A stretch of 64,000 nucleotides of DNA from Massilia rubra. GTDB taxonomy: Bacteria > Pseudomonadota > Gammaproteobacteria > Burkholderiales > Burkholderiaceae_D. How positions within the stretch are numbered: position 1 is the stretch's first letter; every line of letters begins with the position of its first letter. Both the position numbers and the translations under genes were made by a program. The stretch lies in contig NZ_VUYU01000010.1 of NCBI RefSeq assembly GCF_011682065.1, forward strand, positions 1 through 64,000, read 5' to 3'. The notes under the pieces are model-generated. The model searched no databases. It had not been told where the DNA came from and saw only the letters and a program-made list of their open reading frames with translations. Of this stretch, positions 2,805 to 63,104 are shown piece after piece.

Positions 2805-5549
2805 ATGCAAAATACCCTGCTGTTAGTCGACGGTTCCAGTTATCTGTACCGTGCTTTTCATGCCCTGCCCGATCTGCGCAGCCCGGATGGCCATCCCACC
2901 GGCGCCATGCATGGCATGGTCAATATGTTGCGCCGCCTGCGCCAGGATTATCCGGCCGCGTTTATCGCTTGCGTGTTCGATGCCAAGGGCAAGACCTTCC
3001 GCGATGATATGTATCCGGAATATAAGGCCACGCGCGCGTCCATGCCGGATGACCTGCGCCTTCAAATCGAGCCGATCCACGAAGTGGTGCGCCACATGGG
3101 CTGGCCGATCCTGATGGTCGACGGCGTCGAGGCCGACGATGTGATCGGCACCTTGTCGGTCCAGGCTTCCAGGCTGGGCATGAATACCGTGGTCTCCACC
3201 GGCGACAAGGACCTGGCGCAGCTGGTCAACGACAAGGTCATGCTGATCAACACGATGAGCAACGAGAAGCTCGACGAGGCCGGCGTGCTGGCCAAGTTCG
3301 GCGTGCCGCCCAACCGCATCATCGATTACCTGACCCTGATCGGCGATACCGTCGACAATATCCCCGGCGTGGCCAAGTGCGGCCCGAAGACCGCCCTCAA
3401 GTGGCTGGCGCTGCACGACAGCCTCGATGGGGTGATCGCCAACGCGGCCTCCATCGGCGGCGCGGTCGGCGAGAACCTGCGCCAGGCGCTCCCGTGGCTG
3501 CCACAGGGCCGCGCCCTGATCACCGTCAAGACCGATTGCGACCTGGCCGGACACATGGTCTCGATCGCCGACACCCTGGTGGCGCAGCCGGAAAACAAGG
3601 AGGGCCTGAAGGCCTTCTTCGAGCGCTATGGCTTCAAGACCCTGCTGCGCGAAGTGGTCCAGCGCGACGACGAGGGCGCCCCGCGCGCGCTGCTCAATTC
3701 CCCGGAGGGCGACTTGTTCCCGGGCGCGCTGGTGCCGGTCATGCGCGGCGAGTACGAAACGGTGGTCACCGAGGCCGACCTGGAACGCTGGCTGGCCCTG
3801 GTCGATGCCGCCGAGCTGACTTCGGTCGATACCGAAACCACCTCGCTCGACCCGCTGACGGCGCAGATGGTCGGCATTTCGCTGTCGGTCGAAGCGGGCA
3901 AGGGCGCCTACATCCCGCTGGCGCACCGCTACGCCGGCGTGCCCGAACAACTCGATCGCGAGGCGGTCCTGGCGCGCATGAAGGCATGGCTGGAAGACCC
4001 GTCCAAGCCCAAGGTCGGCCAGAACCTCAAGTACGACAGCCATATTTTCGCCAACCATGGCGTGACCCTGCGCGGCATCGTGCACGACACCTTGCTCGAG
4101 TCGTATGTGTTCGAGTCGCACAAGCCGCACGACATGGACAGCATGGCCCTGCGCCACCTGGGCTACACCACGATTCCGTTTGTCGATGTATGCGGCAAGG
4201 GCGCCGGCCAGATCTGCTTCGACCAGGTGGAACTGGGCCGCGCGACCGAATACGCGGCCGAGGATTCCGACATCACCCTGCGCCTGCACCAGGCCATGAA
4301 GGGCCATGTCGAGAGCGACGAAAAGCTCAATTTCATTTATCGCCAGATCGAGCTGCCTACCTCCGTGGTGCTGCACAAGATCGAGCGCAACGGGGTGCTG
4401 ATCGACGCCGAGCTACTCAATGTGCAGTCGGGTGAACTCGGTGCGCGCATCATGGAGCTCGAACAAAAGGCGTACGAACTGGCCGGCGGCCCGTTCAACC
4501 TCGGTTCGCCCAAGCAGATCGGCGAGATCTTCTTCGGTAAACTCCAGCTGCCGGTGATCAAAAAGACCCCGAGCGGGGCGCCGTCGACCGACGAGGAGGT
4601 GCTGCAAAAGCTGGCCGAGGATTTCCCGCTGCCGAAAATCCTGCTCGAATACCGCGGCATGTCGAAACTCAAGTCGACCTACACCGACAAGCTGCCCAAG
4701 ATGGTCAACCGCGAGACCGGCCGCGTGCACACCAACTACGCGCAGGCCGTCGCCGTGACCGGGCGCCTGTCGTCGAACGAGCCGAATCTGCAGAACATCC
4801 CGATCCGCACGGCCGAAGGGCGCCGCATCCGCGAAGCCTTTATCGCCGGTCCCGGCAACGTGATCGTCTCGGCCGACTATTCGCAGATCGAACTGCGCAT
4901 CATGGCCCATATTTCGGAAGACGCGGCCATGCTGCGCGCCTTTGCCGAGGGCGAGGATATCCACCGCGCCACCGCCGCCGAGATCTTCGGCGTGGCGCCG
5001 GCCGAGGTGCAGGGCGAGCAGCGCCGCTACGCCAAGGTGATCAACTTCGGCCTGATCTACGGCATGAGCGCCTTCGGGCTGGCCGCCAACCTGGGCATCG
5101 AACGCTCGGCGGCGCAAAACTATATCGACAAGTACTTCGCGCGCTTTTCGGGCGTGCGCCAGTACATGGAAGACACGCGCATGCAGGCCAAGGCGCGCGG
5201 GTATGTCGAAACCGTGTTCGGCCGGCGCCTGTGGCTGCCCGAGATTAATTCCCCGAACGGCCCGCGCCGCCAGGGCGCGGAACGGGCCGCGATCAACGCG
5301 CCGATGCAGGGCACCGCGGCCGACCTGATCAAGCTGGCCATGATCGCGGTGCAGGACTGGCTCGAGGCCGACGCTCTGGGCACGCGCATGATCATGCAGG
5401 TGCACGATGAACTCGTGCTCGAAGTGCCGCAGGCGGAACTGGCATTGGTCAAGTCCAGGCTGCCGCAGTTGATGGCGGGCGTGGCGGCCCTGAAAGTGCC
5501 CCTGTTGGCTGAGGTGGGTATCGGTAAAAACTGGGATGAAGCGCACTAA
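2805..5549 (+). CDS. polA: DNA polymerase I
   Basis: A 914-residue repair and Okazaki-fragment-processing polymerase. The 5'-3' exonuclease domain occupies residues 1-290 (VDGSSYLYRAFHALP; the acidic motif DGVEADDVIG). A 3'-5' proofreading domain covers about 320-500 and keeps its acidic residues (VDTETTSLD near residue 340; AAEDSDITLRLH). The polymerase domain follows, with motif A SADYSQIELR near 688, the O-helix around INFGLIYGMSAFG, and motif C QVHDELVLEV near 865. The proofreading domain therefore looks active. The start at 2805 gives the canonical N-terminus; an in-frame extension upstream would run through the repeat at 2461-2713. A possible -10 element (GATAAT) lies at 2744-2749. Confidence 0.97.
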   Translation: MQNTLLLVDGSSYLYRAFHALPDLRSPDGHPTGAMHGMVNMLRRLRQDYPAAFIACVFDAKGKTFRDDMYPEYKATRASMPDDLRLQIEPIHEVVRHMGWPILMVDGVEADDVIGTLSVQASRLGMNTVVSTGDKDLAQLVNDKVMLINTMSNEKLDEAGVLAKFGVPPNRIIDYLTLIGDTVDNIPGVAKCGPKTALKWLALHDSLDGVIANAASIGGAVGENLRQALPWLPQGRALITVKTDCDLAGHMVSIADTLVAQPENKEGLKAFFERYGFKTLLREVVQRDDEGAPRALLNSPEGDLFPGALVPVMRGEYETVVTEADLERWLALVDAAELTSVDTETTSLDPLTAQMVGISLSVEAGKGAYIPLAHRYAGVPEQLDREAVLARMKAWLEDPSKPKVGQNLKYDSHIFANHGVTLRGIVHDTLLESYVFESHKPHDMDSMALRHLGYTTIPFVDVCGKGAGQICFDQVELGRATEYAAEDSDITLRLHQAMKGHVESDEKLNFIYRQIELPTSVVLHKIERNGVLIDAELLNVQSGELGARIMELEQKAYELAGGPFNLGSPKQIGEIFFGKLQLPVIKKTPSGAPSTDEEVLQKLAEDFPLPKILLEYRGMSKLKSTYTDKLPKMVNRETGRVHTNYAQAVAVTGRLSSNEPNLQNIPIRTAEGRRIREAFIAGPGNVIVSADYSQIELRIMAHISEDAAMLRAFAEGEDIHRATAAEIFGVAPAEVQGEQRRYAKVINFGLIYGMSAFGLAANLGIERSAAQNYIDKYFARFSGVRQYMEDTRMQAKARGYVETVFGRRLWLPEINSPNGPRRQGAERAAINAPMQGTAADLIKLAMIAVQDWLEADALGTRMIMQVHDELVLEVPQAELALVKSRLPQLMAGVAALKVPLLAEVGIGKNWDEAH

Positions 5550-5586
5550 CTATTAAATAATGACCTACCTACTGAAAGAGGGAACG

Positions 5587-6834
5587 ATGAAGAGCACATT
5601 TATCCGCCTTGGCACGGCAAGCACCGTAGTGGCCGCCATGGCCCTGACAGCCTGCGGCGGCGGCGGCGGCAACCCCGGCGCCAACGGCTCCACCACCCCC
5701 GGCACCACTCCGCCGACGCTCGGCGGCACCGCCGGCACGCTCAACATTGCGCTGACCGATGCCCCGGCCTGCGGCTTCGACGCCGTCAACGTCACCGTCA
5801 AGAAGGTGCGCGTCCACCAGAGCGCGACCGCGGCCGATGCCGATCCCGGCTGGTCCGAGGTGGTGCTGGCGCCGGCGCGCAAGATCAATCTGCTCAACCT
5901 GGTCAATGGCGTGCTCGATCCGCTCGGTTCGGTCAGCGTGCCCGCCGGGCGTTACACCCAGGTGCGCCTGATGCTCGATCCGAATACCGGCAACGGCTTC
6001 GCCAACAGCGTCACGCCGACCGCGACCAAGGTTGAAACAACCCTGGAAACCCCGGCGGCGGTGCAGGCCGGCGTCAAGATCGCCAGCGACTTCGAAGTCG
6101 TGGCGGGCCAGCCGTACAACCTGGTGCTCGATTTCGACGCCTGCCGTTCGGTCGTCAACAAGGCGGGCGGCGGTTATCTGCTGACGCCGTCCGTGAGCGC
6201 CATGGCGGCCGCGGGCAGCGGCGTCAGTGGTTACGTCAGCACCTTGTTCTCGGCCAGCGGCGTGGTGGTGAGCGCCCAGCAAAACGGCAGGGTGGTCGGC
6301 AGCACCTCGGTCAATCCATCCACCGGCGCGTTCGCGATCAGCCGCCTGAATCCGGGCGCCTATGATGTCGTGGTCGTCGCTTCCGGCCGCGCCGCAGCCG
6401 TGATCGGCAATGTGAGCGTGCCCGGCGGCGCCAGCAATATCGTCCTCGGCACGGTGGCCTCGCCGATCACCATGCCGGCCAGCCTGACACGCTCGATCAG
6501 CGGCACGGTCAGCATGCTGCCGCTCGCGCCGACCGTCAGGCCGTATGTGAGCGCCTTGCAGACGGTGATCAGCGGCAAGACCGTGGCGATCCAGGCGGTG
6601 GATGCGGCCGCCGGCACCGGCGCGTACGCGATCGGATCGTTGCCGGTCGGCGCGCCGCAGTACGCCACCTACAGCGCTACCGCGCCGCTGGTGTTCAGCA
6701 GCGCTGTGCCGACTCAGGGCGTGGGCAACTATCGCGTCGATGCGGTCGCCGCCGGCTACAGCGTCAAATCGGTGGCGTCGGTGAATGTCTTGACCGGCGA
6801 CCAGGCCAATATCAATCTGCAACTGACGCCGTAA
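5587..6834 (+). CDS. DUF4382 domain lipoprotein
   Basis: A 415-residue predicted lipoprotein. The signal peptide ends in the lipobox LTAC, followed by a Gly/Thr/Pro-rich linker to about residue 45. A DUF4382-like domain spans about 47-205 (LNIALTDAPACGFDAVNVTV, with the hallmark LTDAP). The C-terminal half contains two carboxypeptidase-regulatory-like beta-sandwich repeats (SGYVSTLFS..., SISGTVSMLP...). It is likely anchored in the outer membrane; function is unknown. The start at 5587 follows a good ribosome site (AAAGAGGGAAC) and leaves a normal lipoprotein signal. It is 37 bases downstream of polA but has no obvious functional link to it. Confidence 0.85.
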   Translation: MKSTFIRLGTASTVVAAMALTACGGGGGNPGANGSTTPGTTPPTLGGTAGTLNIALTDAPACGFDAVNVTVKKVRVHQSATAADADPGWSEVVLAPARKINLLNLVNGVLDPLGSVSVPAGRYTQVRLMLDPNTGNGFANSVTPTATKVETTLETPAAVQAGVKIASDFEVVAGQPYNLVLDFDACRSVVNKAGGGYLLTPSVSAMAAAGSGVSGYVSTLFSASGVVVSAQQNGRVVGSTSVNPSTGAFAISRLNPGAYDVVVVASGRAAAVIGNVSVPGGASNIVLGTVASPITMPASLTRSISGTVSMLPLAPTVRPYVSALQTVISGKTVAIQAVDAAAGTGAYAIGSLPVGAPQYATYSATAPLVFSSAVPTQGVGNYRVDAVAAGYSVKSVASVNVLTGDQANINLQLTP

Positions 6835-59486: not shown

Positions 59487-60548
59487 CTATTCGAACGTCA
59501 CAGTGCGCTGCTGCGCGTGACTTTGCAGCGCCAGGTGGATGATCTTGATCACCGCCAGCGCTTCGCGCGCCGTCACCGGCGGGTTTTTGCCGTTGACGAT
59601 GGCGTCGAACAGGCCCTTGTAGTAGTCCTGGTAGCGGCCGGGCAGGGAGGCTGCCTTGCCGCTCACCGTCAAACCACCTTTTACAAAACCGATGCGCGCA
59701 TGCTGCGCTTCGGCTTCCACGCCCCAGCTGGGCGCGCCGGGACGCTCGCCGCGGATCAGCGCCGCCTCCTGCGGGTCCATCCCATGCTTGATAAAACTGC
59801 CGGTTTCGCCATGCACCGTGAAGCGCGGGCCGGCCTGCAATACCAGCGACGCCGCGTGCAGGATCACGCGCCGCGCACCGTAGCGCATGGTCAGGTGGAA
59901 GTAGTCGTCGGAGGCGCTGCCGCCCGCGGCGCCGCGCTGCACGCCCATGTCGCAGTTGACGCAATCGGGATTGCCGAACAAGACCAGCGCCTGGTCGATC
60001 AGGTGTGCGCCCAGGTCGTACAGCAGGCCGGAACCGGGCAAGTCCTGTTCGCGCCAGCGCCCGCGAACGTCCGGCCGATAGCGGTCGAAATGCGCTTCAT
60101 AGGTGTTGACAGGCCCCAGCAGGCCCGATTCGATGGCTTGGCGCAGGGTCAGGAAATCGCTGTCCCAGCGCCGGTTGTGGAACACGCTGAGCACCAGTTG
60201 CCGCTCCTCGGCCAGTGCAATGAGCTCGGCGCCTTCGTCCAGGGTGATGGTGAACGGCTTTTCCACCACCACGTGCTTGCCGGCCAACAGCGCCTGCCTG
60301 GCCAGCGGCGCGTGGCTGGCGTTGGCCGTGGCGACCACCACCAGGTCGACCTCGCCCGACTCGATCAGCTCGGCCGGCGCGGCCACCACCGCCACGCCCG
60401 GAAAGTCGCGCAGCACGCGCTCGCCCTGGCTGGAGCACACGCGCGTGAGGCGCAGGCCGGGTGTCGTGGCGATCAGCGGCGCCTGGAAGGTGGCGCCGGA
60501 AAAGCCGTAGCCGATCAGGCCGACGCGCACTTCACGCGGTGCGTCCAT
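59487..60548 (-). CDS. Gfo/Idh/MocA family oxidoreductase
   Basis: A 353-residue NAD(P)-dependent oxidoreductase of the glucose-fructose oxidoreductase family. The Rossmann motif VGLIGYGFSGATFQAP opens the protein. The family signature EKPFT (KHVVVEKPFT near residue 98) contains the conserved Lys, and the catalytic His lies in LYDLGAHLIDQAL near residue 180. It acts on a sugar, inositol or related polyol. The ATG at 60548 has a GCAGG ribosome site seven bases upstream; a GTG at 60554 overlapping the protease stop is possible. It is adjacent to the carbohydrate island but on the opposite strand. Confidence 0.88.
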   Translation of the reverse strand: MDAPREVRVGLIGYGFSGATFQAPLIATTPGLRLTRVCSSQGERVLRDFPGVAVVAAPAELIESGEVDLVVVATANASHAPLARQALLAGKHVVVEKPFTITLDEGAELIALAEERQLVLSVFHNRRWDSDFLTLRQAIESGLLGPVNTYEAHFDRYRPDVRGRWREQDLPGSGLLYDLGAHLIDQALVLFGNPDCVNCDMGVQRGAAGGSASDDYFHLTMRYGARRVILHAASLVLQAGPRFTVHGETGSFIKHGMDPQEAALIRGERPGAPSWGVEAEAQHARIGFVKGGLTVSGKAASLPGRYQDYYKGLFDAIVNGKNPPVTAREALAVIKIIHLALQSHAQQRTVTFE

Positions 60549-60550
60549 GC

Positions 60551-62035
60551 TCACGCCTGCAGCCAGGCGGCGTGGGCGTCGACCAGGCCGGCCCCGGTGG
60601 CGCCGTCGACGCCCGGCCCGGCCTTCACGCCCAGCCCTTCCGGATCGCTGGACGGGCTGGCCGAGCCGTCATGCACGTCGATCGCGGTGCGCGTCAGCAG
60701 GCCCTTGATTTCGGCCGGCGTGAGCTTGGGATTTTTCTGCAGCAGCAGGGCGCACACGGCGGCGATCTGCGGCGCCGAGGCCGAGGTGCCGCTGAACACG
60801 GCCCAACCGTCGCCGGGACGGGTGCCGTCATGCGCGGCGTTGCCGGTATCGATATCGGCGCCGGGCGGCACCGGCAGCATGATGTAATCGGCGTTCGGCA
60901 GCATGCCGACCAGGCCGCATACATCGGGCACGTGGCGGCCTGAATAGATGCCGCTGGTAAAGGCGGAGGCGTAATCCGACGCTGTCATCGCGCCGTTTTC
61001 GGCCACGAAGGTGCCGCCGACGCTGAGCACTTCCGGCATCGAGGCCGGGAAAGCGTAGTGGCCGTTGCCTGCGGAGAAAACCACCACGATGCCGCTGGCA
61101 ATCGCCGCCTGGATTTCGGCTTCCAGCGGTTTCAGGCCGTTCGGCAAGTCCCCCAGTTCGGAGACGCCATCGTCATCGCGCAAGTCGTAGCACATGCTCA
61201 CCGTGATCACGTGCGGCTTGTGCTTGAGCGCTTCCTGGAAGCCTTCGAGGATGCTGGCGCCGCCGTTCGGGTCGGCGTCGTCGCCCAGCTTGACGCCGAT
61301 GAAGGTCACTTTCGGCGCCACCGCGAACACATTGGCCGATTCGCCCGTGCCGTGGCTGCCGGGATCGGTCTGGCGGTTGGTGGCCGAGGGCGCCAGCACC
61401 ACCGAGGAGGTAAAACCGTTGCGCGTGAAAAATGGGTGCGAATGGTCGAAGCCGGTGTCGATCATGGCCACGCGGATGCCTTCGCCATGGTGGCGTTCCT
61501 TGTGGATATTGGTGACGTTCAGCTTGGCCGGCACATCCTTGAGTACGTCGAGATGGTAGTAACCGACCGACGGCGGGCGCGCGCTGGCGCCGGGGTCGGC
61601 CAGGTAGATGTGCGGCCACTGGATATAGGCGTCGTCGATCAGCGCCTTGATCGCCGGATCGGGATTCCAGGGGGCGCCCTTGGCCGGGTAGAACACGCGG
61701 TCGCTCGAATAGCTTTGCTTCTGGCTCAGGTTGAACGGGGTCAGGCGCGTGCCGAACACTTGTTCGAACTGGGCCACGCTGCCGCGCACCGACACCGTCA
61801 TGCGGCCGCGCCCGGAGACGATAAAGCCGCGCTGGCGCAGCGCCTCGATGGCCGTTTCCATTTCCCCCGGCGCTGGCTCGAAGCTGAGGATGCTGCGCGA
61901 GGACAGGCGCGCCGCCAGCTTGGTCGGGCCGGCGTTGGCGCGGCCCTTGAAGGTAATGGCGATGCGCAACTGCGCTTCCGGCGGAGCCGGTTCGCCCACG
62001 GCGGGACGCGGCTGGCTGGGTTTGAAAGGCTGCAT
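60551..62035 (-). CDS. S8 subtilisin-type protease with sedolisin-like propeptide
   Basis: A 494-residue serine protease. The catalytic triad is of subtilisin type: Asp193 in VAMIDTGFDHSH, His228 in GSHGTGESANV and Ser418 in FSGTSASAPQIA, with the oxyanion Asn324 in SAGNG. The N-terminal region (about 20-115), with FIVSGRGRMTVSVRGSVAQFEQVFG, resembles the pro-kumamolisin domain of S53 sedolisins rather than the usual inhibitor-I9 propeptide. No Sec signal is visible, so its site of action is unclear. A 99-residue gene with a similar propeptide-like sequence lies nine bases upstream. It precedes the oxidoreductase gene by two bases. Confidence 0.85.
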   Translation of the reverse strand: MQPFKPSQPRPAVGEPAPPEAQLRIAITFKGRANAGPTKLAARLSSRSILSFEPAPGEMETAIEALRQRGFIVSGRGRMTVSVRGSVAQFEQVFGTRLTPFNLSQKQSYSSDRVFYPAKGAPWNPDPAIKALIDDAYIQWPHIYLADPGASARPPSVGYYHLDVLKDVPAKLNVTNIHKERHHGEGIRVAMIDTGFDHSHPFFTRNGFTSSVVLAPSATNRQTDPGSHGTGESANVFAVAPKVTFIGVKLGDDADPNGGASILEGFQEALKHKPHVITVSMCYDLRDDDGVSELGDLPNGLKPLEAEIQAAIASGIVVVFSAGNGHYAFPASMPEVLSVGGTFVAENGAMTASDYASAFTSGIYSGRHVPDVCGLVGMLPNADYIMLPVPPGADIDTGNAAHDGTRPGDGWAVFSGTSASAPQIAAVCALLLQKNPKLTPAEIKGLLTRTAIDVHDGSASPSSDPEGLGVKAGPGVDGATGAGLVDAHAAWLQA

Positions 62036-62044
62036 GGAATCCCC

Positions 62045-62344
62045 CTAGGTAGGTTGGCCCGGCGTCGCGTGGCGCGGAGCGATGGTAATCAGGCTGACGG
62101 CGTGTTGCAGATCCGCCGGAATCGCGAGCTCTGGTGTAGATGGTATATCGGATGCGAACCCGGATCTTACATTTGGAATTGGTCCGAATAAATTTTCTGC
62201 CTGGGCCAGGGAGGTTTCGGCCGAGATGGTGGCCATGCCGCAGGCGGTCACATGCATGCCGTGCGCCTCGAGCAAGGCGCACAGGGCGGGGTCATCGCTG
62301 CGATCGCGGGCGCGATCGCGCAGCAGGAGCTGGAGCTTGATCAT
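62045..62344 (-). CDS. Free-standing propeptide-like protein
   Basis: A 99-residue protein without signal peptide. Residues 23-54 (ALLEAHGMHVTACGMATISA, then ETSLAQAENLFG) align with the propeptide of the protease encoded nine bases downstream (residues 65-95, ending SVAQFEQVFG). They share the S-x-AQ-x-E-x-x-FG core. Its PELAIPADLQHAV near residue 71 also matches the end of pro-kumamolisin domains. It looks like a propeptide encoded as its own gene, possibly a folding helper or inhibitor of the protease. The ATG at 62344 or a GTG at 62356 could be the start; neither has a strong ribosome site. Confidence 0.65.
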   Translation of the reverse strand: MIKLQLLLRDRARDRSDDPALCALLEAHGMHVTACGMATISAETSLAQAENLFGPIPNVRSGFASDIPSTPELAIPADLQHAVSLITIAPRHATPGQPT

Positions 62345-62455
62345 GACGGTGCGCACAAGGGGACGCTGATGTCATCATAGTAAGGCTTTGGGGAAATCTT
62401 TGCCCGGCAGATGCAATCGTGCGCGAGAGGCCGCTTGCCTGCGCCCTGCCCACCG

Positions 62456-62611
62456 CCGGTGTCAGGTCTGACATTCGGACACAGACTGAACAGGTCCCCG
62501 GTGTCTGTCATCCCCGGTGTCAGGTCTGACATTCGGACACAGACTGAACATTGGGTAAAGATTGTTGCCTGATACAGCCGTGCTCGTGTCCGAATGTCAG
62601 ACCTGACACCG
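62456..62611. repeat. REP-like repeat cluster: two direct copies and one inverted
   Basis: A 37-base unit occurs twice identically (62456-62492 and 62514-62550, beginning CCGGTGTCAGGTCTGACATT). Its first 25 bases recur inverted at 62587-62611. Each unit contains the small palindrome TGTCAGGTCTGACA. The cluster lies in the 62345-62633 gap between the trmL 3' end and the propeptide-like gene's start. The CCGGxGTC beginning recalls the repeat near polA, but the unit is different. No transposase is present. Confidence 0.8.
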
Positions 62612-62633
62612 CCTGTGACACTGCCTGGGAGGA

Positions 62634-63104
62634 TCAGGCGCCGCCGGCGTAGCCGTTCTGGCGCCAGGCTTCGAACACCACCACCGCGACCGTGTTGGAG
62701 AGATTCAGGCTGCGGTTGTCCGGACGCATCGGCAGGCGGATGCGTTGTTGCGCCGGGAACGATTCGCGCAGGGCCGGCGCCAGGCCGCGCGTTTCGGCGC
62801 CGAACACGAACACGTCGCCCGGCAGGAAGCTGGCCCCGGCGAACGGCGCCGAGCCGTGCGTGGTCAGCGCGAACATGCGCGCCGGGTCGGGCTGGCATGC
62901 GCTGATATAGGCGTCCCAGTTCTTGTGGACCCGCATGCTGGCGTAATCGTGATAGTCGAGCCCGGCGCGCTTCATCTTGGCGTCGTCCAGCGGAAAACCT
63001 AGCGGTTCGATCAGGTGCAGTTGCGCGCCCGTGTTGGCGCACAGGCGGATGATGTTGCCGGTGTTCGGCGGGATTTCGGGTTCGACCAGTACGACGTGAA
63101 ACAA
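62634..63104 (-). CDS. trmL: tRNA (cytidine(34)-2'-O)-methyltransferase
   Basis: A 156-residue SPOUT-fold methyltransferase that 2'-O-methylates the wobble base of tRNA-Leu isoacceptors. Family motifs are FHVVLVEPEIPPNTGNIIRL at the N-terminus, FVFGAETRGLA, and IRLPMRPDNRSLNLSNTVAV forming the knot. The start is a TTG at 63104, decided by the ribosome site AAGGAG six bases upstream and by the family terminus; an ATG at 63125 would add seven residues and lies ahead of that site. It is 28 bases after comF on the same strand. Confidence 0.93.
   Translation of the reverse strand: MFHVVLVEPEIPPNTGNIIRLCANTGAQLHLIEPLGFPLDDAKMKRAGLDYHDYASMRVHKNWDAYISACQPDPARMFALTTHGSAPFAGASFLPGDVFVFGAETRGLAPALRESFPAQQRIRLPMRPDNRSLNLSNTVAVVVFEAWRQNGYAGGA

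Follow-up and report, generated by a model that had tools for sequence, protein, structure and literature searches.

The window, by which we mean the whole 64,000-nucleotide stretch of DNA from the soil bacterium Massilia rubra that was analyzed, encodes a protease in which a subtilisin-type catalytic domain bears a sedolisin-type prodomain, and a second, free-standing copy of this prodomain is encoded directly upstream (Table 1). Judging from the alignments described below, the small upstream protein is a homologue of the N-terminal prodomain of its neighbor. We consider it fairly probable that the two genes constitute a compact protease-antidote module, in which the small protein would be a dedicated trans-acting inhibitor with predicted binding, inhibition, coupled production and release. 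It is possible, at a much more tentative level, that S8 proteases with a sedolisin-type prodomain, silenced in the cell by a dedicated free-standing prodomain, form a widespread, sparsely distributed and PopD-PopC-like system that was assembled at least twice.

Table 1. Coordinates of the gene pair and of its component features in the window.
Feature	Positions	Strand	Description or basis
Small protein gene	62045..62344	-	Free-standing propeptide-like protein of 99 aa without an evident signal peptide
S8 (subtilisin-family) serine protease gene	60551..62035	-	494 aa, 51.7 kDa, PF00082
Junction of the two genes	62036..62047	-	TAG of the small gene overlaps AGGGGG; protease ATG 9 nt after the stop
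C-terminal strand and tail of the small protein (...SLITIAPRHATPGQPT)	62045..62104	-	hhalign to the C-terminus of the prodomain
Sedolisin-type prodomain of the protease (residues 18-147)	61595..61984	-	AF2 and Foldseek
S8 catalytic domain	60641..61486	-	Pfam PF00082, alignment of 14 sequences

The two genes lie on the same strand with the small gene first. The list of open reading frames places its start at a GTG at 62356, which gives 103 aa, while the ATG at 62344 gives 99 aa, and a comparison of starts revealed that the MIKLQL... sequence at this ATG is common to all 12 genus members. The AGGGGG at the junction resembles a ribosome-binding site and may function as one. By a crude measure of hydropathy, neither protein has a signal-peptide-like N-terminus (the N-terminal peak of the protease was 0.56). 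No Rfam match was obtained at gathering scores for positions 60000-63000, and no sigma-70-like promoter was found in positions 60400-62700, although a sigma-70 scan says little for this organism. At its 3′ end, the protease gene shares 4 nt (60551-60554) with the start of a GFO/IDH/MocA oxidoreductase gene. The possibility that the small gene is a spurious open reading frame was ruled out by its dN/dS ratio, its conservation and its codon-position pattern, with 21, 12 and 32 variable sites at codon positions 1, 2 and 3, respectively.

The initial annotation had claimed that the small protein shares a domain with the propeptide of the adjacent protease, and this was borne out by hhalign and its controls. 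The alignment of 21 small proteins to 22 prodomains extended over 95 columns (Prob 98.0, E 2.8e-13), and in a re-run the true score was 73.5, compared to at most 18.0 for 100 column shuffles, 18.8 for the reversed alignment and at most 10.8 for four windows of the catalytic domain; the non-genus sequences alone scored 69.3 and the genus sequences alone 52.3. The alignment reaches both C-termini, placing ...LQHAVSLITIAPRH of the small protein on ...IKALIDDAYIQWPH of the protease, so that the tail ...SLITIAPRHATPGQPT pairs with the prodomain C-terminus ...DDAYIQWPHIYL. A direct BLASTP comparison of the small protein with the protease gave 12 identical residues out of 30 (40%, E 2e-4). In a blind test, a profile made from the prodomains only was run against the 4046 unique stop-to-stop frames (≥50 aa) of the fetched loci; 20 frames of at most 200 aa matched at E ≤ 1, and all 20 were upstream neighbors of the protease, with E-values that ranged from 4.8e-9 (Calothrix) to 0.16 and a value of 0.014 for the window copy. 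The blind profile led to the Nonomuraea partner, which was concealed in a long frame, and it missed the Desulfosarcinaceae copy, which was found only by the small-protein profile, itself built with that copy. Taken together, the shuffle, reversal and catalytic-window controls and the blind profile test rule out chance similarity.

The shared S-x-AQ-x-E-x-x-FG core that had been described for the two proteins stood in part: the strand-helix pattern around it is conserved, whereas the residue identity is partly peculiar to the window copy, and close relatives read SPAEAENLFG or SLADAENLFG at this site. The Phe of the ...LFG is invariant in 21/21 small proteins, and in the LITxAPxH stretch near the C-terminus the L, I, T, A, P and H are invariant across the 12 genus members.

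Structural models were obtained for both regions. The AF2 model of the prodomain (20 sequences) had a pLDDT of 85.6 and a pTM of 0.78, and that of the small protein (21 sequences) a pLDDT of 75.8 and a pTM of 0.65. The elements of the small protein, E2-8, H19-27, E31-35, E39-44, H46-53 and E83-88, give the order beta-alpha-beta-beta-alpha-(loop)-beta, and the prodomain has this order plus extra short helices and a hairpin; the structural similarity that had been put forward as a check is therefore present in the models as an equal order of the fold. When the prodomain model was searched with Foldseek, pro-kumamolisin (1t1e) ranked first (E 1.4e-3, probability 1.00, TMq 0.55), the second match had an E-value of 0.27 and none reached E ≤ 0.001, which assigns the prodomain to the pro-kumamolisin fold. 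In addition, the small-protein family profile matched a propeptide in a related genome, that of an S53-like protease (G067, E 9.1e-5; this ORF was identified by eye), and these two results agree with the sedolisin type that had been proposed from the sequence. The small-protein model had no significant match in the PDB (best E 0.18); POIA1, a known propeptide-like inhibitor, appeared at rank 5 (E 0.29) amid unrelated folds, and Foldseek alone is thus insufficient to settle the fold of the small protein, which rests on sequence homology together with a medium-confidence model.

The pro-kumamolisin activation domain PF09286 remained below its gathering cut-off of 23.5 bits both in the prodomain of the protease (17.9 bits, E 0.0039) and in the window small protein (12 bits, E 0.26), and at E ≤ 1 it matched 7 of 14 protease sequences (best 4.1e-4) and 5 of 21 small proteins, that of the window included (best 0.0012). 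The Pfam family Inhibitor_I9 gave no match at E ≤ 1 in the window small protein or its 20 relatives, in a search where the HMMER filters remove most matches above ~0.1. For the small protein, NCBIfam contained nothing at E ≤ 1, the defence library contained nothing, and a sequence search of solved structures with the small family returned nothing credible (best E 0.47). The same search with the prodomain family returned an enolpyruvyl transferase at E 0.006, which we judged to be a chance match.

The protease belongs to the S8 family, as PF00082 matched it with 103.3 bits (cut-off 21.8, E 1.9e-29), and a model named subtilase in the defence library matched it as well. D193, H228, S418 and N324 are invariant in 14/14 aligned protease sequences, and the subtilisin-type motifs at D193 (DTG/DSG), H228 (HGT) and S418 (GTSA) are kept in all of them; we take the first three residues to be the catalytic triad and N324 to be the oxyanion residue. 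This invariance suggests that the protease should be active. No S53 model was present among its Pfam matches at E ≤ 1, and S53 enzymes use Glu-Asp-Ser as catalytic residues, without the subtilisin His. The window protease resembles the S53 sedolisins (pro-kumamolisin, 1t1e, PF09286) in the fold of its prodomain, for which they provide the best PDB match, and differs from them in a catalytic domain that has S8 motifs with the conserved His. To our knowledge, the propeptides of S53 proteases are cis domains. The alignments of 14 proteases (A4) and 22 prodomains (A6) take in subsets of the genus; the G013 protease, whose frame is broken, was omitted from alignments A1 and A4, and the G006 protease was omitted from A1 as well.

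We investigated the distribution of the pair in the genus at thresholds of E ≤ 0.01 for the small protein and E ≤ 1e-60 for the protease. Both genes were present in 12 of 17 genomes, the relatives including Massilia aquatica, M. mucilaginosa, M. atriviolacea and M. frigida, and neither was present in the other five. In every one of the 12 genomes with the protease the small gene is directly upstream on the same strand, at a distance of 9 nt in seven (window included) and 36 nt in one, and with a 14-nt overlap in three; the common strand and this tight spacing or overlap support the arrangement noted at the outset. In Massilia sp. H-1 (L026 5856-7985), the small protein and the protease lie in a single open frame with no stop, which could reflect either a sequencing error or a natural fusion; since this assembly is listed as 48% complete, the fused frame was given no weight, and a stop separates the genes in the other 10 of the 11 fetched genus loci and in the window. 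The protease frame of L023, from the MAG G013, is broken, in that it matches residues 1-415 of the window protease and then diverges from the family, and a full-length tblastn match to the protease is present in the same contig (L047).

The initial annotation had suggested looking for the pair in other Oxalobacteraceae, a scope that proved too narrow. Of the 392 genomes in the family sample, 12 contained the protease (E ≤ 1e-50), every one in this genus, yet the pair recurs in other phyla. Among 398 genomes of a phylum sample the protease (E ≤ 1e-40) was found in the genome of the window only, which indicates that the module is rare and patchy. Scanning a genome collection with the protease alignment yielded 18 loci, of which 10 were beyond the genus: three from Bradyrhizobium, five from alpha- and gammaproteobacterial MAGs, one from a Desulfosarcinaceae MAG and one from a SAR324 MAG; plasmid records added relatives in Calothrix and Nonomuraea. 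A propeptide-like ORF lies upstream on the same strand in 11 of these 12 non-genus relatives, the exception being SAR324, so that the predicted conservation of the pairing holds both in the genus and beyond it. As the same pair is present in very different bacteria, the small protein probably serves the protease specifically, either as an inhibitor or as an aid to folding. The small ORF of Calothrix, which is annotated only as a hypothetical protein, is 245 nt from the protease, and the genes are closer in the other non-genus pairs. Upstream of the SAR324 protease (L057) there are instead a 182-aa ORF and a 600-aa ORF, Hint-like/metalloprotease-like by eye. Two of the Bradyrhizobium small ORFs (L052 3550-3942 and L058 3456-3860) lack any ATG, GTG or TTG start codon ahead of the domain, pointing to either a rare start codon or a damaged gene, and the third (L049) has such a start.

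More distant S8 proteases were found on plasmids of Rhizobium (eight) and of Mesorhizobium, Aminobacter and Paenibacillus (one each), and no partner was seen beside the four of these 11 that were examined. Two of them, on Rhizobium leguminosarum plasmids (L061 3860-5317 and L064 3818-5275), are partnerless and lie near folE, adenylosuccinate synthetase and purB genes, a type of cluster that suggests a biosynthetic role for this distant Rhizobium branch. Phage records contained no relative of the protease at E ≤ 1e-30, and the viral contigs gave one weak S8 match with 25% identity.

Homologues of the small protein without a protease as neighbor, which the initial annotation had named as evidence against its proposal, were sought in the own genome, 60 relatives, 17 genus, 398 phylum and 399 order genomes (these sets overlap), and the genomes sampled yielded none that was convincing. 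Four other places in the own genome matched with E 0.25 to 0.98, and one (L004) matched with E 0.2 when the family profile was used; these values are not significant. At E ≤ 0.001 and beyond the pair, the family profile detected the S53-like propeptide of G067 and two further matches (E 3.1e-4 and 6.9e-4), which overlap the frames of other ORFs, one of them resembling a chemotaxis locus by eye. About 0.3 chance matches of such strength are expected in 399 genomes, so that the two, while not convincing, could conceivably be true stand-alone homologues away from the protease.

Among seven close genus members (21 pairs each), the ratio of mean dN to mean dS was lowest in the catalytic domain (0.10), followed by the prodomain (0.16) and the small gene (0.28). 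The small gene is under purifying selection, yet it changes faster than the other two. In the five genus members that are more distant, identity to the window copy is 42-52% in the small protein, compared to 79-81% in the protease. In a tree built from 23 small proteins together with 22 prodomains and a single S53-like propeptide, the small proteins of Calothrix and Nonomuraea grouped with the prodomains of their own proteases (95/87), apart from the proteobacterial ones. Of 200 bootstrap trees, 1% separated the small proteins from all other sequences by a single branch; a common origin of the small proteins is nevertheless not rejected (p-AU 0.113) in this analysis, in which some branches are long.

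In the reading that we favor, the free-standing prodomain would fold like the protease's own N-terminal prodomain and dock on the catalytic domain. Its C-terminal strand and tail (...ITIAPRH..., equivalent to ...YIQWPHIYL in the protease) are, by analogy with known propeptides, the candidate active-site segment and would enter the substrate cleft as a product-like inhibitor. The small gene would be translated first, probably coupled to the protease, and a cytoplasmic subtilase without a signal peptide would meet its inhibitor without delay; the protease would become active only after the inhibitor had been titrated away, degraded or left behind on export. The nearest model for such a release step would be the degradation of PopD on starvation in Myxococcus, as it is described in the available parts of two reports (PMC6434023, PMC4320627). 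Inhibition is favored because of the precedent of the CspB prodomain, which, according to the accessible text on this protein, restores folding when supplied in trans and blocks the active site via its C-terminal residues (PMC3567191), and because in several other lineages the small protein stops straight after the corresponding conserved strand (PPRRL, SHSYY, PPARHF). Several points count against this reading: the SAR324 protease and the four distant plasmid proteases examined are without a partner, the model of the small protein is of medium confidence and has no significant PDB match, two Bradyrhizobium copies are without a start, and in the genus a tail of 4 to 14 residues, variable while the core is kept, extends past APxH, so that there is no neat end at the P1 residue. 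Furthermore, since the protease has its own prodomain, a second one is unneeded for ordinary autoinhibition.

The main rival to an inhibitor, to which we assign a minor though appreciable chance, is a trans-acting foldase, whereby the small protein would chiefly help the catalytic domain to fold and inhibition would be secondary. The order of the genes and their tight spacing suit a helper that is made just before its client, and this reading has to be taken seriously because the CspB prodomain in trans also restored the folding of the subtilase domain (PMC3567191). On the other hand, the protease keeps its own prodomain, and as this is both better modelled (with the higher pLDDT of 85.6) and more constrained (dN/dS of 0.16 versus 0.28), the protease should fold in cis; the absence of a nearby partner in SAR324 likewise weighs against a required folding helper. 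Less probable again, in our estimation, is an export regulator like PopD: the leaderless protease would be held in a complex until a signal, for example starvation, destroys the small protein, and would then be secreted and cut a surface or intercellular signal protein. The available text has PopD in a complex with PopC and blocking its secretion (PMC6434023), and the window protease, at 51.7 kDa and leaderless by crude hydropathy, has a small neighbor too, but popC is upstream of popD in the corresponding section of the second report (PMC4320627), an order that is reversed here.

Two further explanations carry little weight. We think it quite unlikely that the protease cuts the small protein as its substrate or as a precursor peptide, for instance to release the tail of the latter, with the prodomain fold as a recognition module. 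A short gene coupled to the protease, and a tail past APxH that varies while the core is kept, would be expected of a precursor; however, several lineages end after the conserved strand (PPRRL, SHSYY, ARHF), which leaves little peptide, and no export or modification gene was common to the lineages in the flanks compared (14 loci, ~4-6 kb per side where the sequence extended). The least probable reading, already disfavored, is that of a decaying, functionless duplicate of the prodomain. The faster evolution of the small protein (42-52% versus 79-81% identity) would fit decay, whereas a dN/dS of 0.28 and the retention of the small gene beside the protease in 12/12 protease-bearing genus genomes and in 11/12 other relatives argue against it.

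Our favored reading, a dedicated free-standing inhibitor, has parallels among known systems. The stand-alone propeptide-like inhibitors named in the literature that we found are eukaryotic, as far as the available text extends (PMC6993865). SUB1-ProM of Plasmodium is a stand-alone propeptide-like protein that is encoded beside subtilase genes and is a potent and selective inhibitor; like the small protein, it has a propeptide-type fold, with two helices and four strands, and is closest to the prodomain of its target. It differs in being eukaryotic, in its predicted secretory signal and in that its inhibition was measured, whereas here inhibition is predicted; moreover, in the sections available its fold is an S8 propeptide fold, compared with the SUB1 prodomain and not of the sedolisin type (PMC6993865). 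Subtilases are also inhibited by the stand-alone proteins POIA1 of Pleurotus, SPI-1 (AtSPI-1) of Arabidopsis and the peptidase B inhibitor of yeast, and these MEROPS I9 inhibitors, together with TgMIC5, resemble the window protein in being small propeptide-fold products that are not cut from a protease precursor. The same sections do not describe adjacency of the I9 inhibitor genes to the gene of the target protease (PMC6993865), whereas the genes are adjacent here, and the window protein differs from these inhibitors in having no Inhibitor_I9 signature and only a non-significant structural match to POIA1 (E 0.29). Regarding the C-terminus, the potency of POIA1 and of the yeast inhibitor went up when their last six residues were swapped for those of the BPN' propeptide, while the C-terminus was reported to be non-essential in the cucumisin and PfSUB propeptides, according to the part of the source that was accessible (PMC10580911).

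Two bacterial systems are also comparable. CspB of Clostridium is a subtilase with a prodomain that stays bound and occludes the active site; it differs in that this prodomain comes from the protease's own gene, and its supply in trans was an experiment, as far as the available excerpt relates (PMC3567191). PopC of Myxococcus xanthus is described in the accessible parts of two reports as a leaderless subtilisin-family protease of ~51 kDa with an undefined N-terminal part (PMC6434023, PMC4320627), to which the window protease is alike, and as having an operon partner that binds PopC and holds it back, and a small neighbor is present here in 12/12 genus genomes with the protease. The systems differ in that popC precedes popD (PMC4320627), whereas the small gene is first here, and PopD is not described as propeptide-like in those parts (PMC6434023, PMC4320627).

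Since inhibitors of the SUB1-ProM type beside a subtilase have been described in Plasmodium, the principle is not new. The combination of a bacterial, sedolisin-type free-standing propeptide with an adjacent S8 protease looks new, as no bacterial stand-alone sedolisin-type propeptide paired with an S8 protease was found in the literature searched, a search for which most subscription journals were outside the scope. A pair in which the cis prodomain has a homologous free-standing counterpart offers a natural test of the prodomain as folding catalyst versus regulator, and the family links S8 catalytic domains to S53-type prodomains. It also suggests how the cytoplasm could tolerate a subtilase that has no signal peptide, and if the parallel with PopC-PopD is true, there would be uncharacterized pathways of regulated proteolysis in several phyla.

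Finally, we analyzed the surroundings of the pair. All 11 fetched genus loci retain the upstream SpoU-type methylase and ComF-like genes, and the GFO/IDH/MocA gene is near the pair in 7 of these 11 plus the window; none of the three had a match in the 10 non-genus loci searched. When 623 frames from 14 loci were compared all against all, between-lineage matches lay over the protease and small-gene stretches, many of them in shadow frames, and the sole other between-lineage match noticed was one of 63 aa upstream of the pair in the alphaproteobacterial MAGs L054 and L055. Because the neighbors otherwise differ between lineages, the pair behaves as a unit. In two genus loci (L027 2495-5599 and L026 ~4306-5922) and in a Geminicoccaceae MAG (L055 1873-3168), a gene for a patatin-like phospholipase is found upstream of the two genes; it was identified by Pfam (L027 and L055) or tblastn (L026), and the remaining 9 fetched genus loci gave no match. 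Three copies of a palindromic repeat (GTGTCAGGTCTGACATTCGGACAC) are present in positions 62451-62620 of the window, in the gap that separates the small gene from the SpoU-type methylase gene. When up to one mismatch is allowed, this repeat has 55 sites in the genome, of which 42 are exact, compared to 0 for a reversed control pattern. Its copies are often inverted pairs ~51 or 69-70 bases apart, and we take it to resemble a dispersed element of the REP/BIME type.
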